From a virus, in IMG/VR virus record IMGVR_UViG_3300010373_000115, positions 1 through 27,653 of that record: DNA of 27,653 nucleotides, one strand, 5' to 3'. The notes under the pieces are model-generated. The model saw only the letters and a program-made list of their open reading frames with translations, had not been told where the DNA came from and ran no database searches. The position numbers and the translations under genes are program-made. This document shows, in pieces, positions 422-5,309 of this stretch. The stretch's first letter is position 1, and every line of letters begins with the position of its first letter.

Positions 422-1186
422 CTACCACGTCGTAACCAGCAGTTCGCTGGCCTGCTTCGGGCTGGCATTGCCGCCGATTGTGTAGGTCGTGCGCAGCCGC
501 CGCGAGCGGAAGGCGCCATAGACCCGCCGCATGGTCGGATGATCATTGATCGACAGGACGGCTCGACCGCGCAGCGCGGCCATTGCGGTCGCGAGCGCCT
601 CATGCTGCCCTAGGTCGAAACTCTGTCCGTATCCTTCCGTCTCGAAGTACGGCGGGTCACAGTAAAACAGCGTCTCGGGACGATCGTAGCGGGTAATGCA
701 ATCCTGCCACGGCAGATGCTCGATGGTGACGCGGGCGAGCCGCAGATGCGCGGCTGACAAGTCTTCCTCGATCCGAAGCAGGTTCAGGCGCGGACCGGCT
801 GTTGCAGCCGTGCCGAAGGTCTGGCCGGCGACCTTGGCGCCAAAAGCGAGCTTCTGAAGGTAGAAGAACCGAGCCGCGCGCTGGATGTCGGTCAGCGTTT
901 CGGGGCGCTCCATCTGCGTCCACTTGAACATCTCGCGGCTCACCAGCGCCCAGCGAAACTGCCTGACGAGCTCGTCCAGGTGATGGCGCACACAGCGGTA
1001 CAAGCGAACCAGCTCGCCGTTGAGGTCGTTGATGATCTCGACCGGCGCCGGCGTGCGCATGAACAGGATGGCCGCGCCGCCGGCGAACGGTTCGACGTAA
1101 CAATGGTGCGGCGACTTTTCAATGAGCGGAACGATGTGTTTTGCGAGCCGGCGCTTTCCGCCAGGCCAAGGAACAATTGGAGTCAT
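422..1186 (-). CDS. DNA N6-adenine methyltransferase, D12 class (Dam-like)
   Basis: The enzyme transfers a methyl group from S-adenosylmethionine to the N6 of adenine in DNA. The 254-residue protein begins MTPIVPWPGGKRRLAKHI, the N-terminal D12 motif with PGGK. It then has YVEPFAGGAAILF (AdoMet-binding FxGxG type), NDLNGELV, and the catalytic DPPYFETEGYGQSF. Length is normal for the family. I chose the ATG at 1186 because the family motif starts there; the frame is open upstream to 1492 but that part lacks family features. It is the last gene before the right end, where Mu carries its mom DNA-modification gene, so a role in protecting phage DNA from host restriction is likely. The exact target sequence cannot be read from the protein. 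Confidence 0.9.
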   Translation of the reverse strand: MTPIVPWPGGKRRLAKHIVPLIEKSPHHCYVEPFAGGAAILFMRTPAPVEIINDLNGELVRLYRCVRHHLDELVRQFRWALVSREMFKWTQMERPETLTDIQRAARFFYLQKLAFGAKVAGQTFGTAATAGPRLNLLRIEEDLSAAHLRLARVTIEHLPWQDCITRYDRPETLFYCDPPYFETEGYGQSFDLGQHEALATAMAALRGRAVLSINDHPTMRRVYGAFRSRRLRTTYTIGGNASPKQASELLVTTW

Positions 1187-1335
1187 GGTTCTCAATTCCG
1201 ATGAACGTGATGGCTTAGCCTTCACCTGCTGCGACGTCGCGGCAGGGGGCCTTGCCTGACTCCACCGTTCACGCGGTGGTACTCGGGGATCGGCGACGCG
1301 CTCCAACGCAGCGTCGATCGCCCTCTTCTTTCCAA
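1187..1335. other. Gap between tail fibre-type gene and methyltransferase
   Basis: I see no convincing gene here. The minus strand has a possible 37-codon TTG-started ORF beginning just after the DUF2793 stop, and the methyltransferase frame is open throughout. Neither has a clear ribosome site. No strong hairpin or T-run was seen. Confidence 0.3.
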
Positions 1336-1698
1336 CTACACCGCAACGCCAGCTGTCCAGGCACCCGCGATGTAGGTGGTGATCTTGGATTCGGCCTCGA
1401 TGACGAAACGCCAGCCAGTCCGCGGCGCGCCGAATACCCATGCGGCATTGAGGCCATCCCACACCGCGACCTGGCCATCTTTGCCGGCCCATGCCCCTGT
1501 GGCACCGGCAGCAACGATGTAAGTATCGCCCGCGGCCGGAGATGCCGGCGGCGCTGCGGTAGTGCGGTTCTTTGCTGATGGGTGAAAGGCAAAGCGGCCA
1601 ATGGCCAGCAGATTGGCGTCCATGCCTGCGTTCCAGTTCTGCTCGCCCAACGCCCAGCCGTAATTGAGACCGCTGCGCGGCTCGATTGAAGCGCTCAT
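1336..1698 (-). CDS. DUF2793-domain tail fibre-associated protein
   Basis: A 120-residue protein with N-terminal GLNYGWALGEQNWNAGMDAN followed by PPASPAAGDTYIVAAGATGAWAG, then DGQVAVWDG, WVFGAPRTGW and a short C-terminal beta-rich end. This pattern (Asp-rich turn, TGAWAG, repeated Trp) is the DUF2793 domain found at the ends of phage tail fibres or as a separate small tail protein. It starts with ATG at 1698, overlapping the stop of the tail-tip gene as ATGA, so it is made together with it. It probably forms part of, or caps, the receptor-binding apparatus. The full length of such domains is about 90 residues, so little else is present. The family call is fairly sure and the role is inferred. 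Confidence 0.75.
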   Translation of the reverse strand: MSASIEPRSGLNYGWALGEQNWNAGMDANLLAIGRFAFHPSAKNRTTAAPPASPAAGDTYIVAAGATGAWAGKDGQVAVWDGLNAAWVFGAPRTGWRFVIEAESKITTYIAGAWTAGVAV

Positions 1699-4600
1699 GG
1701 TGTACCTCCGTAGAACATGCCGTAGTTGAAGCCGTAGCCCGACCGGAGCAGCAGAAAGCCGTGGTGCTGCGCGCTTATCAATGCGTCGCGCTCACTTTCA
1801 AGCTCAATGCGCAAGCTGCCATTCAGAAGGCCAAAACTCGCATTGGGAAAGGCAGCATTGGGTAGCATGAAACTCGCGGTATAACGACCTACGCCCTTGG
1901 TGATGCGCAGATCGTCGATGTAGCCGGGGAAAGATGACGGCGAAACTGTACTGTCCCAGCGCGTGCCGATGCGCACATCCTGCGTTGTGGCGGGCAGATC
2001 GCCTACGATGGTCGCAGACGCCATCATTGTGCCGTTGACGTACAGCGTGAACACGTCGCCGTTGCGCGACACCGCAATATGCGACCATGCCCCCACAGTG
2101 ATCGGGTTGGGCGATATCAGCCCGTGCCAAGCGCTGTTGTAGTAGCCAAAGGCAGGATAGGTCAATGTGCCCGAATTAGCGCCCAGCGTCGTCGAGCTCG
2201 CAAAGTGAAGAGCGTATTGAATGTTGCCGCTGCCGGGATAAACCGTCGTTAGCAGGCCCTGCCCGCTGGGAGCTGAGGTCGGATAGCACCAACACTCAAG
2301 AGTAAAGTCGCCAGACGTAATATTGAGACCGGCGTTGTGGGGGCAGTCGGCCCCTCCTGACGCGAGACAGCCGAGACTCGCTCCTCCGAACTTCGACTGT
2401 GCCGTCTTGATGGATGACGTGCCGACCACCGCCCAAGTATTCCCGGCGATCTCATCCTTGAAGACTTTGCTTCCGTCGGTGCCATCAAAATGCAGGAGCG
2501 CCGTCACATAGCTCCAATAAGGATCGTCCGATCCGCCGCGTTCCGCGTCATTTGTGAAGGTGAAGGTTGTCCCGGCCATGCCGGTCTCGGAATGCAGAAG
2601 CGCGTCGGCCTGGTTATAGATGCGCAGATTGTAGGTCGTCCCGGCTTCCGGCCCAACATCCGCCTGCGTCGTGTCGATCAGTTGATCGGCCTCAAGGATA
2701 CGATCGCGGTGTGCCCACGTGAACACCAGGTCTCCCGTCACAGAGGCGGGATAAGCAACGCCATTGACCTGCACATCGGCAGGGGGGTACGGCCGGTATT
2801 GTCGCTGGGCGAATGTAACCTCCAATGCCGTTGCCAACGATGGATCGAGCTGCGTGCTACCCATATTTGTCAGCAACTTGGCATCGATGGTTTCGCCAGC
2901 CGTGTATTCCGCGCCGTCCGTGCCGTCGAAGCCGTCGAAAAACCAGATGCGGCTGCTGGCGGCGTGTGCGACGGGCACTGTGTCAGCGCAACCGCGTCCG
3001 AGCGTGATCGTGCCGGCGTCTGCGTCGATGGCATCCACGCGCACAATTTCGTCATCCCACAACGCGGCCGAACCAACTGTCACGCGGTCGAGCAAAGTTC
3101 CTTCGACGAGCGTGAAGTCGGTCACCAGTACGCCCGTGAGCGTATCGCTCTCAGCGATCAGCGCGGCGGGGCACCAAGGCGCGGTTGCAGTGCCGGCATA
3201 GCTTGCGCCGCCGTCGGTGGAGACTGTGACGGTGTAATCGCGGCTTGTGGCCGGATCGATCGCCGCCGTCATCAGGTAGCCCGCGTCGTCCGGAAGCGCG
3301 CCAAGGTCGGCACGCGAAAGACTGCGCACAACTTCGAAATAAGGTGCCTCGAACGCCGTCTGGTAGAGGATTCCGAGCGGGATTTGCGAGGGGCGCGTGT
3401 CTACACCTGGCTCTTGCCCCATGAAACTGGAAAGGGGCAAGCTGTAGATGTCTTCGACGGCAGTGAGCTTGATGGCGCCGCTGGTGAGCGTGCCGCTATC
3501 GGGATCGCCGACGATGCACACCATGTCCGCGATGCCATGCTTGGGCGCCTCCATTCTGAAATAGGTGCCTTTTCGCCACGCGTGTGCCACGCGTGTGGCG
3601 GTGATTTCGAAGCCGTGCGTGGGTGTCGCCGTCGATTGCAGATCGCGTTGTGCAACGCGCAATGCGAGATCACTTGTGGGGATCTCTGGAGAGCTCGTGT
3701 CCTGGTGGCTGCGGCCGTAGGCACTCACCAGTGCCAGAGCTTCCACGGGGCGCGTCGAAACCGTGGTCTTCTGCTGCGGATCGAAAAATTGCACGCTGAC
3801 GCTGTTGACGGCGCTGTCGAGCGTCGCCGGTTGCATGGTGAACGCAAGAATGTCATCGTCGGTAAGAACCGGCAGCGCGTTGATGTCGTACTGACCATTC
3901 GCGATGTCGAGATACCAGAGGCCATCGGCGGGGCTGCGCGTCATGCTGCAACCGGCCACCTTTTCGATGCGCGCGATGAAGGCGTCGATCGTCTCCTGCG
4001 ACGCATCGTAGTTCGTGCAAAGCCCGAAGCCCTGCGACGAAAACCAATCGGCAGCCGCCTTGAAGCTGGCATCGTTCATGTTGGCCGTGGGTTCGCGGCC
4101 CATATGTTGCTGGGTGCGCGCGTAGTACAGGATGTGCGCAGGATTCATGCCGACGAGCCCCGCACCAGCGTCGGTCGTCAACAGTTGGCCATCCTGATGC
4201 ATCCAGTAGCGCGCACCATCCCAGCACAGGGAAACGAAGGCCCACCGCCCAAGCGCGGGCGAGTCGATGGTTTCAAGCACCTGCGGTTGAAGTACATTGA
4301 TGTCCTGCTGCTGCACATAGCGCCATGCGGTGCCGACGACCGACCACTCGGTTTCATGTCCCGTGATGTTCTTGTCGCCGTAGCCGAAAAGCGATCGCCC
4401 GAACCCTGAACTGCTGGTGGATTCCAGCCATACCCATGCGTCCATCGTCCACGGGATGCTTCCCAGCGATTCATCGGCGCCCATCTGGATATCCAGGTAA
4501 TCGTCGACGCCATCGAAGTACGCCGAGGAACCTCCGAACATCGATTTGTCGGTAGTGATATGCGCACCGTTGAAGGCGGTGACGGCGTGGCCGCAATCGT

Positions 4601-5309
4601 CTGAAAAATCGGTGGACCCGTCTGGGCCATCCATGTTCAGCAGCATCACCGTGCTGCTGTCGCGCGCGAAGGCAGTCGTGGGCGCTTGATACTGCATGGC
4701 TGCGTAATATGCGCCCCGACGCAGGCGAATCGAATCGACGTAGCCCTGCCACCAGCCGGCGAGCGCGGAATAGGGGCCGTCAAGATGCTTGGAAGTGCCG
4801 ACCAGAAAATAGCCGGTGTTCCAGTCCGGCCACGGCCAATTGCCTGCAACGGGCGCGCGCGCATCGCTCATCGCGACCGGCGCTTTCTCCGGGTACCAGC
4901 AGTTGTTGTCATCCCAACCCTTCGTAATTTTCCGCCACTTGTAGCTGATCTTTTGCGGGTAGGGATTCATGGCGCCGTAGCGGCCGCCCTTCCACGCCGC
5001 GGTCATGAAGCCGCGCCATGCTGGCTGCTGATCGCCGAAGGTCGCCGTCAGGTACGCATTCGGCTGCTGGGTCGCTTCGCCGAACATGATGTCCATGTCA
5101 CCGGCCATGCCGCCCTGGTCTTTCTCGCCGCCCCATAGGTTCGGCGCGTTGACGGTGATGGTGCCGCTGGCGGTCAGCTCGCCTGACCACGCCGTCTTGT
5201 CGCCGCCACGGATCTCCAGCAGTGCGTCGGCGGGGCCGTAGCCGAGACCCATGTGGAAGGCCGGGTGGTACCAATAACCGACAGTGGTCTTGCTGCTCTT
5301 GCCGCCCAT
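1695..5309 (-). CDS. Tail-tip / host-specificity protein (J-like) with two LamG insertions
   Basis: A 1204-residue tail protein of the kind at the distal end of B3-like and lambda-like tails, expected to contact the cell surface. Residues 1-145 are the conserved start, including GYWYHPAFHMGLGYGPAD and a Trp-rich stretch ending in WYPEKA. The J-like core resumes at about 388 (MNPAHILYYARTQQHMGREP, then FKAAADWFSSQGFGLC) and runs to about 640. Fibronectin-like or beta segments follow at about 640-920. Between 146 and 387 lies a LamG/concanavalin-like insertion whose order looks permuted: the last strands (WWQGYVDSIRLRRGAYY, 187-202) come before the first strands (VMLLNMDGPDGS, 221-232). A second LamG in normal order lies at about 930-1157 (LLHFDGTDG ... 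GYIDDLRITKGVGRYT). The protein ends at a Gly/Tyr-rich FNYGMFYGG tail. Start ATG at 5309 is 2 bp from the previous stop. Confidence 0.88.
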   Translation of the reverse strand: MGGKSSKTTVGYWYHPAFHMGLGYGPADALLEIRGGDKTAWSGELTASGTITVNAPNLWGGEKDQGGMAGDMDIMFGEATQQPNAYLTATFGDQQPAWRGFMTAAWKGGRYGAMNPYPQKISYKWRKITKGWDDNNCWYPEKAPVAMSDARAPVAGNWPWPDWNTGYFLVGTSKHLDGPYSALAGWWQGYVDSIRLRRGAYYAAMQYQAPTTAFARDSSTVMLLNMDGPDGSTDFSDDCGHAVTAFNGAHITTDKSMFGGSSAYFDGVDDYLDIQMGADESLGSIPWTMDAWVWLESTSSSGFGRSLFGYGDKNITGHETEWSVVGTAWRYVQQQDINVLQPQVLETIDSPALGRWAFVSLCWDGARYWMHQDGQLLTTDAGAGLVGMNPAHILYYARTQQHMGREPTANMNDASFKAAADWFSSQGFGLCTNYDASQETIDAFIARIEKVAGCSMTRSPADGLWYLDIANGQYDINALPVLTDDDILAFTMQPATLDSAVNSVSVQFFDPQQKTTVSTRPVEALALVSAYGRSHQDTSSPEIPTSDLALRVAQRDLQSTATPTHGFEITATRVAHAWRKGTYFRMEAPKHGIADMVCIVGDPDSGTLTSGAIKLTAVEDIYSLPLSSFMGQEPGVDTRPSQIPLGILYQTAFEAPYFEVVRSLSRADLGALPDDAGYLMTAAIDPATSRDYTVTVSTDGGASYAGTATAPWCPAALIAESDTLTGVLVTDFTLVEGTLLDRVTVGSAALWDDEIVRVDAIDADAGTITLGRGCADTVPVAHAASSRIWFFDGFDGTDGAEYTAGETIDAKLLTNMGSTQLDPSLATALEVTFAQRQYRPYPPADVQVNGVAYPASVTGDLVFTWAHRDRILEADQLIDTTQADVGPEAGTTYNLRIYNQADALLHSETGMAGTTFTFTNDAERGGSDDPYWSYVTALLHFDGTDGSKVFKDEIAGNTWAVVGTSSIKTAQSKFGGASLGCLASGGADCPHNAGLNITSGDFTLECWCYPTSAPSGQGLLTTVYPGSGNIQYALHFASSTTLGANSGTLTYPAFGYYNSAWHGLISPNPITVGAWSHIAVSRNGDVFTLYVNGTMMASATIVGDLPATTQDVRIGTRWDSTVSPSSFPGYIDDLRITKGVGRYTASFMLPNAAFPNASFGLLNGSLRIELESERDALISAQHHGFLLLRSGYGFNYGMFYGGTP

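Follow-up and report, generated by a model that had tools for sequence, protein, structure and literature searches.

A 27,653-base virus record (the window, meaning the whole stretch of DNA that was analysed) encodes a tail-tip protein in which the last strands of a LamG-like domain were initially annotated as standing before the first ones. The locus raises the question of whether this segment forms one complete, circularly permuted LamG or is what was left of a tandem pair trimmed at both ends, and how such an order could have arisen within a tail-tip protein.

Position and strand order of the insert

The protein (P0001) is encoded by an intact ORF (5309-1695, - strand, 1204 aa). It matched the JBD30 baseplate hub (8rk3_o, E 8e-117) and the minor tail protein 8vjh_A (E 1e-108), which we take to be a phage Chi protein, in phmmer searches, and also matched phrog_1101 (E 5e-214). 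Hub core homology flanks the insert on both sides, which places the protein among JBD30-type baseplate hubs. Tail assembly and tape measure genes lie near the hub gene on the same strand. A DNA methyltransferase gene (phrog_56; window 425-1492, -) directly follows the hub gene; in JBD30, the hub gene is followed by gp54, which encodes a receptor-binding protein (PMC11445458). The hub gene is laid out as follows, in window positions.

1695..5309, -: baseplate hub (tail-tip, JBD30 gp53-like) protein, 1204 aa; phmmer matches to 8rk3_o and 8vjh_A, and phrog_1101
4857..5309, -: hub core upstream of the insert, residues 1-151 (JBD30 gp53 1-148); phmmer match to the JBD30 hub
4155..4859, -: inserted module, very probably a circularly permuted LamG, residues ~151-385; missing between JBD30 148/149, and read from order, complementarity and the AlphaFold2 model
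4665..4835, -: N-part, last LamG strands (GYFLVG ... WWQGYVDSIRLRRGAYY ... APTTAF), residues ~159-215; identity to the N-parts of relatives
4650..4667, -: linker bridging the former C- and N-termini, residues ~215-220; alignments
4164..4649, -: C-part, first LamG strands (VMLLNMDG ... WMHQDGQLL), residues 221-382; LamG profile
2550..4148, -: hub core downstream of the insert, from MNPAHIL, residues 388-920; residues 385-918 correspond to JBD30 149-682
1839..2522, -: second LamG, residues ~930-1157, natural order and close to the C-terminus; Laminin_G_3, best stretch 995-1137, and LamG profile 1-210 (E 1e-59)

Because residues 1-151 correspond to JBD30 1-148 and residues 385-918 to JBD30 149-682, ~235 residues are inserted between JBD30 positions 148 and 149, which are adjacent in that hub. 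The hub core resumes at MNPAHIL (residue 388, nt 4148), as the initial annotation had it, and the strings that it quoted lie where it placed them: WWQGYV at residue 186 (nt 4754), VMLLNM at residue 221 (nt 4649) and, in the second LamG, GYIDDLRI at residue 1129. The insert thus presents the end of LamG first and its start second, departing from the natural strand order as claimed, and this order recurs in L002/L003, L012, L190 and L014 and is therefore no accident of one contig. GC3 is 0.734 in the insert and 0.735 in the core that follows it; composition thus gives no hint that the insert was imported recently.

Complementary coverage and predicted fold

Complementarity was read off a 210-position LamG profile in natural strand order, built from the second LamG of P0001, two others and their relatives. 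The C-part of the insert (residues ~219-381) matched profile positions 4-159 (E=5e-26), and the N-part alone gave a weak match to positions 170-210 (E=0.075). The latter was assigned as the LamG end because homologous N-parts match the profile, namely those of L012 (170-208, E 1.5e-8), L190 (174-210, E 3.8e-7) and L002 (166-210, E 1.4e-5); the P0001 N-part is 41-43% identical to those of L012, L002 and L014 and 31% identical to that of L190. Since the N-parts of the permuted relatives correspond to ~166-210 and their C-parts to ~1-163, one domain is covered once. All profile positions are represented in L002, L012, L190 and L014, with the P0001 N-part assigned by homology. Two random trims would leave a gap or overlap of ≤10 on the 210-position profile with a chance of ~0.1, and both types of cut point found here (see below) fall within this limit. 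The length agrees as well: the period of tandem-array LamGs is 222 ± 12 aa (n=121) and the insert equals one period, while anchor-to-anchor spans are 232-253 residues in permuted hubs versus about 11 when the loop is empty. In alignments, the P0001 linker (residues ~215-220) is shorter than those of its relatives.

AlphaFold2 with 122 natural sequences (5 permuted and 117 natural tandem tiles) predicted a compact domain (pLDDT 87, pTM 0.88); because the halves of the tandem tiles come from neighbouring domains, closure owes something to what the method already knows about this fold, and the result supports it without proving it. With only 4 sequences, the pLDDT was 34. Residues 160-215 and 218-387 were placed in one compact body, and not in the two separate folds that would have spoken against the initial reading. 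In Foldseek comparisons with viral models, alignments to some LamG-bearing targets spanned 240-243 columns, but at 18.6-19.9 Å, and those to others 168-187 columns, at 3.4-4.9 Å. The pattern is one expected of two halves packed against each other, and not of neighbours in an array. The insert model had no match in the PDB at E≤0.001 in Foldseek.

The proposal that the two parts together make one complete LamG is supported by their complementary coverage, the one-period length, the compact AlphaFold2 domain and the presence of the same unit in L014. We conclude that residues ~151-385 are very probably one circularly permuted LamG (a ConA-like jelly-roll) in the loop of a JBD30-type hub, most likely with a single closed fold, as the model predicts. 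It is very unlikely that the insert is instead what was left of two tandem LamGs after trimming on either side, and no longer forms a complete domain. Its order is that of a repeat junction, one also seen in S-SKS1, and relatives commonly have tandem arrays. Against this reading, trimming was complementary in both types of cut point, the insert is 45-57% identical among P0001, L002 and L012 and 44% identical in the unrelated protein L014, and AlphaFold2 predicts one compact body. A domain swap, in which each half is completed by the other half of an adjacent subunit in the hub trimer and not by that of its own chain, would satisfy the sequence evidence equally well, and JBD30 hubs are indeed trimers (PMC11445458); we nevertheless regard it as very unlikely, given that the permuted unit also occurs in L014, a protein of another kind, and that AlphaFold2 closes the insert within one chain, though it was given a single chain alone. 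Between the two explanations offered initially, a permuted domain and a trimmed tandem pair, the permuted single domain is favoured, but the two are not exclusive. Complementary trimming of a tandem pair is one classic route to circular permutation.

Relatives and origin of the permuted order

The permuted insert with the order of P0001 is also present in the hubs of L002/L003, L012 and L190, with identities to the P0001 insert of 53% (L002), 47% (L012) and 29% (L190). A first scan of genome contigs yielded no relative; a second one identified L014, from a Lysobacter metagenome-assembled genome, in which the same permuted unit lies near the C-terminus of a 545-aa fibre-like non-hub protein. 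The region around this fibre-like protein (L014:4179-5816) is prophage-like and includes an integrase-like ORF close by. Among 395 scanned genomes of the L014 family, only partial LamG matches were found besides L014's own genome. One further hub, L126, carries a permuted LamG at this loop (L126:3308-4000) with another cut point on the LamG profile, in which an N-part (126-205) is followed by a complementary C-part (1-116).

The end-before-start order was thus found in all five hubs with LamG in the loop and in L014. All 5 of the 5 LamG inserts at the loop are permuted, the five not being independent, and LamG matches downstream of the loop were found in 21 hubs, in natural order among the matches listed.

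In some relatives, possible donors lie close by. A natural-order LamG is encoded in a non-hub ORF in about 20 loci of the hub set; at least two natural-order LamGs share one ORF in L141, L190, L298 and L302, and in L190 a tandem LamG array lies downstream of the hub. Outside the permuted family, the nearest relatives of the P0001 insert are mostly tandem arrays. The insert was probably taken up as one out-of-register repeat period of a tandem LamG array like those downstream of some relatives' hubs; alternatively, an inserted LamG could have been duplicated and then trimmed. Either route would yield the permutation, and one of them is the most likely origin. The former inter-repeat linker would then join the old termini, and the new termini would lie between two strands (profile 160/166), joined to both ends of the hub loop.

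In the tree, P0001, L002, L012 and L014 are grouped (support 94), and L126 and L190 lie nearby on long branches. That all six permuted sequences are placed near each other would agree with a single permuted ancestor of L126 and the P0001 family, whose cut point later slid, an account that is compatible with the permuted-LamG reading and that we consider close to an even prospect. However, apart from itself, L126 is matched best in blastp by a natural tandem array and not by the permuted family, and the cut points are ~45 positions apart. The long branches of L126 and L190 limit the weight of the tree for either reading. We tentatively suggest the other possibility, that the hub loop may select permuted LamGs, which would have arisen there at least twice independently, cut at different points, as out-of-register pieces captured from tandem arrays nearby. 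If so, phage tail tips would naturally generate permuted lectin-like domains.

The hub loop and comparison with known systems

Hubs were collected in three scans, giving 155 non-redundant proteins, 149 of which were measurable at the loop between WYPEKA and MNPAH (hub loci L103-L315). The loop has ≤20 residues in 48/149 hubs and 21-60 in 11/149 (≤60 in 59/149), and exceeds 60 residues in the remaining 90/149. Inserts of >45 residues fall into about 24 blastp groups. These include a Gal-binding-like group of 34, assigned by reading, whose one tested member had no Pfam match, as well as 18 vWA-like inserts (L110 matches PF00092, E 6e-5), 8 ConA-like ones (by reading), the 5 LamGs and many singletons. 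The vWA-like domains of L110, L122 and L131 carry a DLSGSM/DTSSSM motif. Because so many other domains occupy the same site, permutation is unnecessary for insertion into the loop. These data suggest that the hub loop is an insertion hotspot, a site at which binding modules are swapped in.

Identities of inserts and cores are discordant, the pattern expected if the insert is exchanged as a unit: L002 and L012 have inserts 57% identical and cores 31-43% identical, L012 and L190 have cores 51-57% identical and inserts 42% identical, and L004 shares 55-63% core identity with P0001 and carries an insert of another kind. The permuted LamG is most likely an exchangeable host-binding module. It is presumably surface-exposed and, judging from its fold class and the variety of modules at the loop, would decorate the hub and contribute to the binding of a glycan or receptor on the cell surface, being exchanged as a cassette. 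With its range of unrelated modules, among them LamG and vWA-like ones, the loop is a candidate site for host-binding change.

In the literature, which was covered in part, we found no paper on LamG permutation from tandem repeats or on a multi-module hub loop. The insert offers a sequence-level case of how tandem repeats can give rise to a circular permutation; in some relatives, possible donors are encoded in the same gene neighbourhood. JBD30 gp53, named as the baseplate hub (PDB 8rk3, PMC11445458), and the Chi hub (8vjh) share the flanking core, and their loop is without an insert. In lambda gpJ, too, the N-terminal part of a hub protein houses an extra domain, the Ig-like FNIII-A in the HDII-insertion domain (PMC10721106), but its fold differs from that of the LamG insert. 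The alignment to lambda gpJ (hhalign probability 0.8%) was too weak to equate the two loops. The insert resembles Laminin_G_3/ConA-like lectin domains (PF13385) in the profile match of its parts and its predicted jelly-roll strands, and differs from them in its rotated strand order. Circular permutation in the same fold class is found in concanavalin A among legume lectins, where it is made by protein cutting and rejoining, whereas the P0001 permutation is encoded in the gene. Cyanophage tandem LamG arrays, such as S-SKS1 AGH31518, show the same end-then-start junction, but each half there is part of a separate domain, unlike in the P0001 insert.
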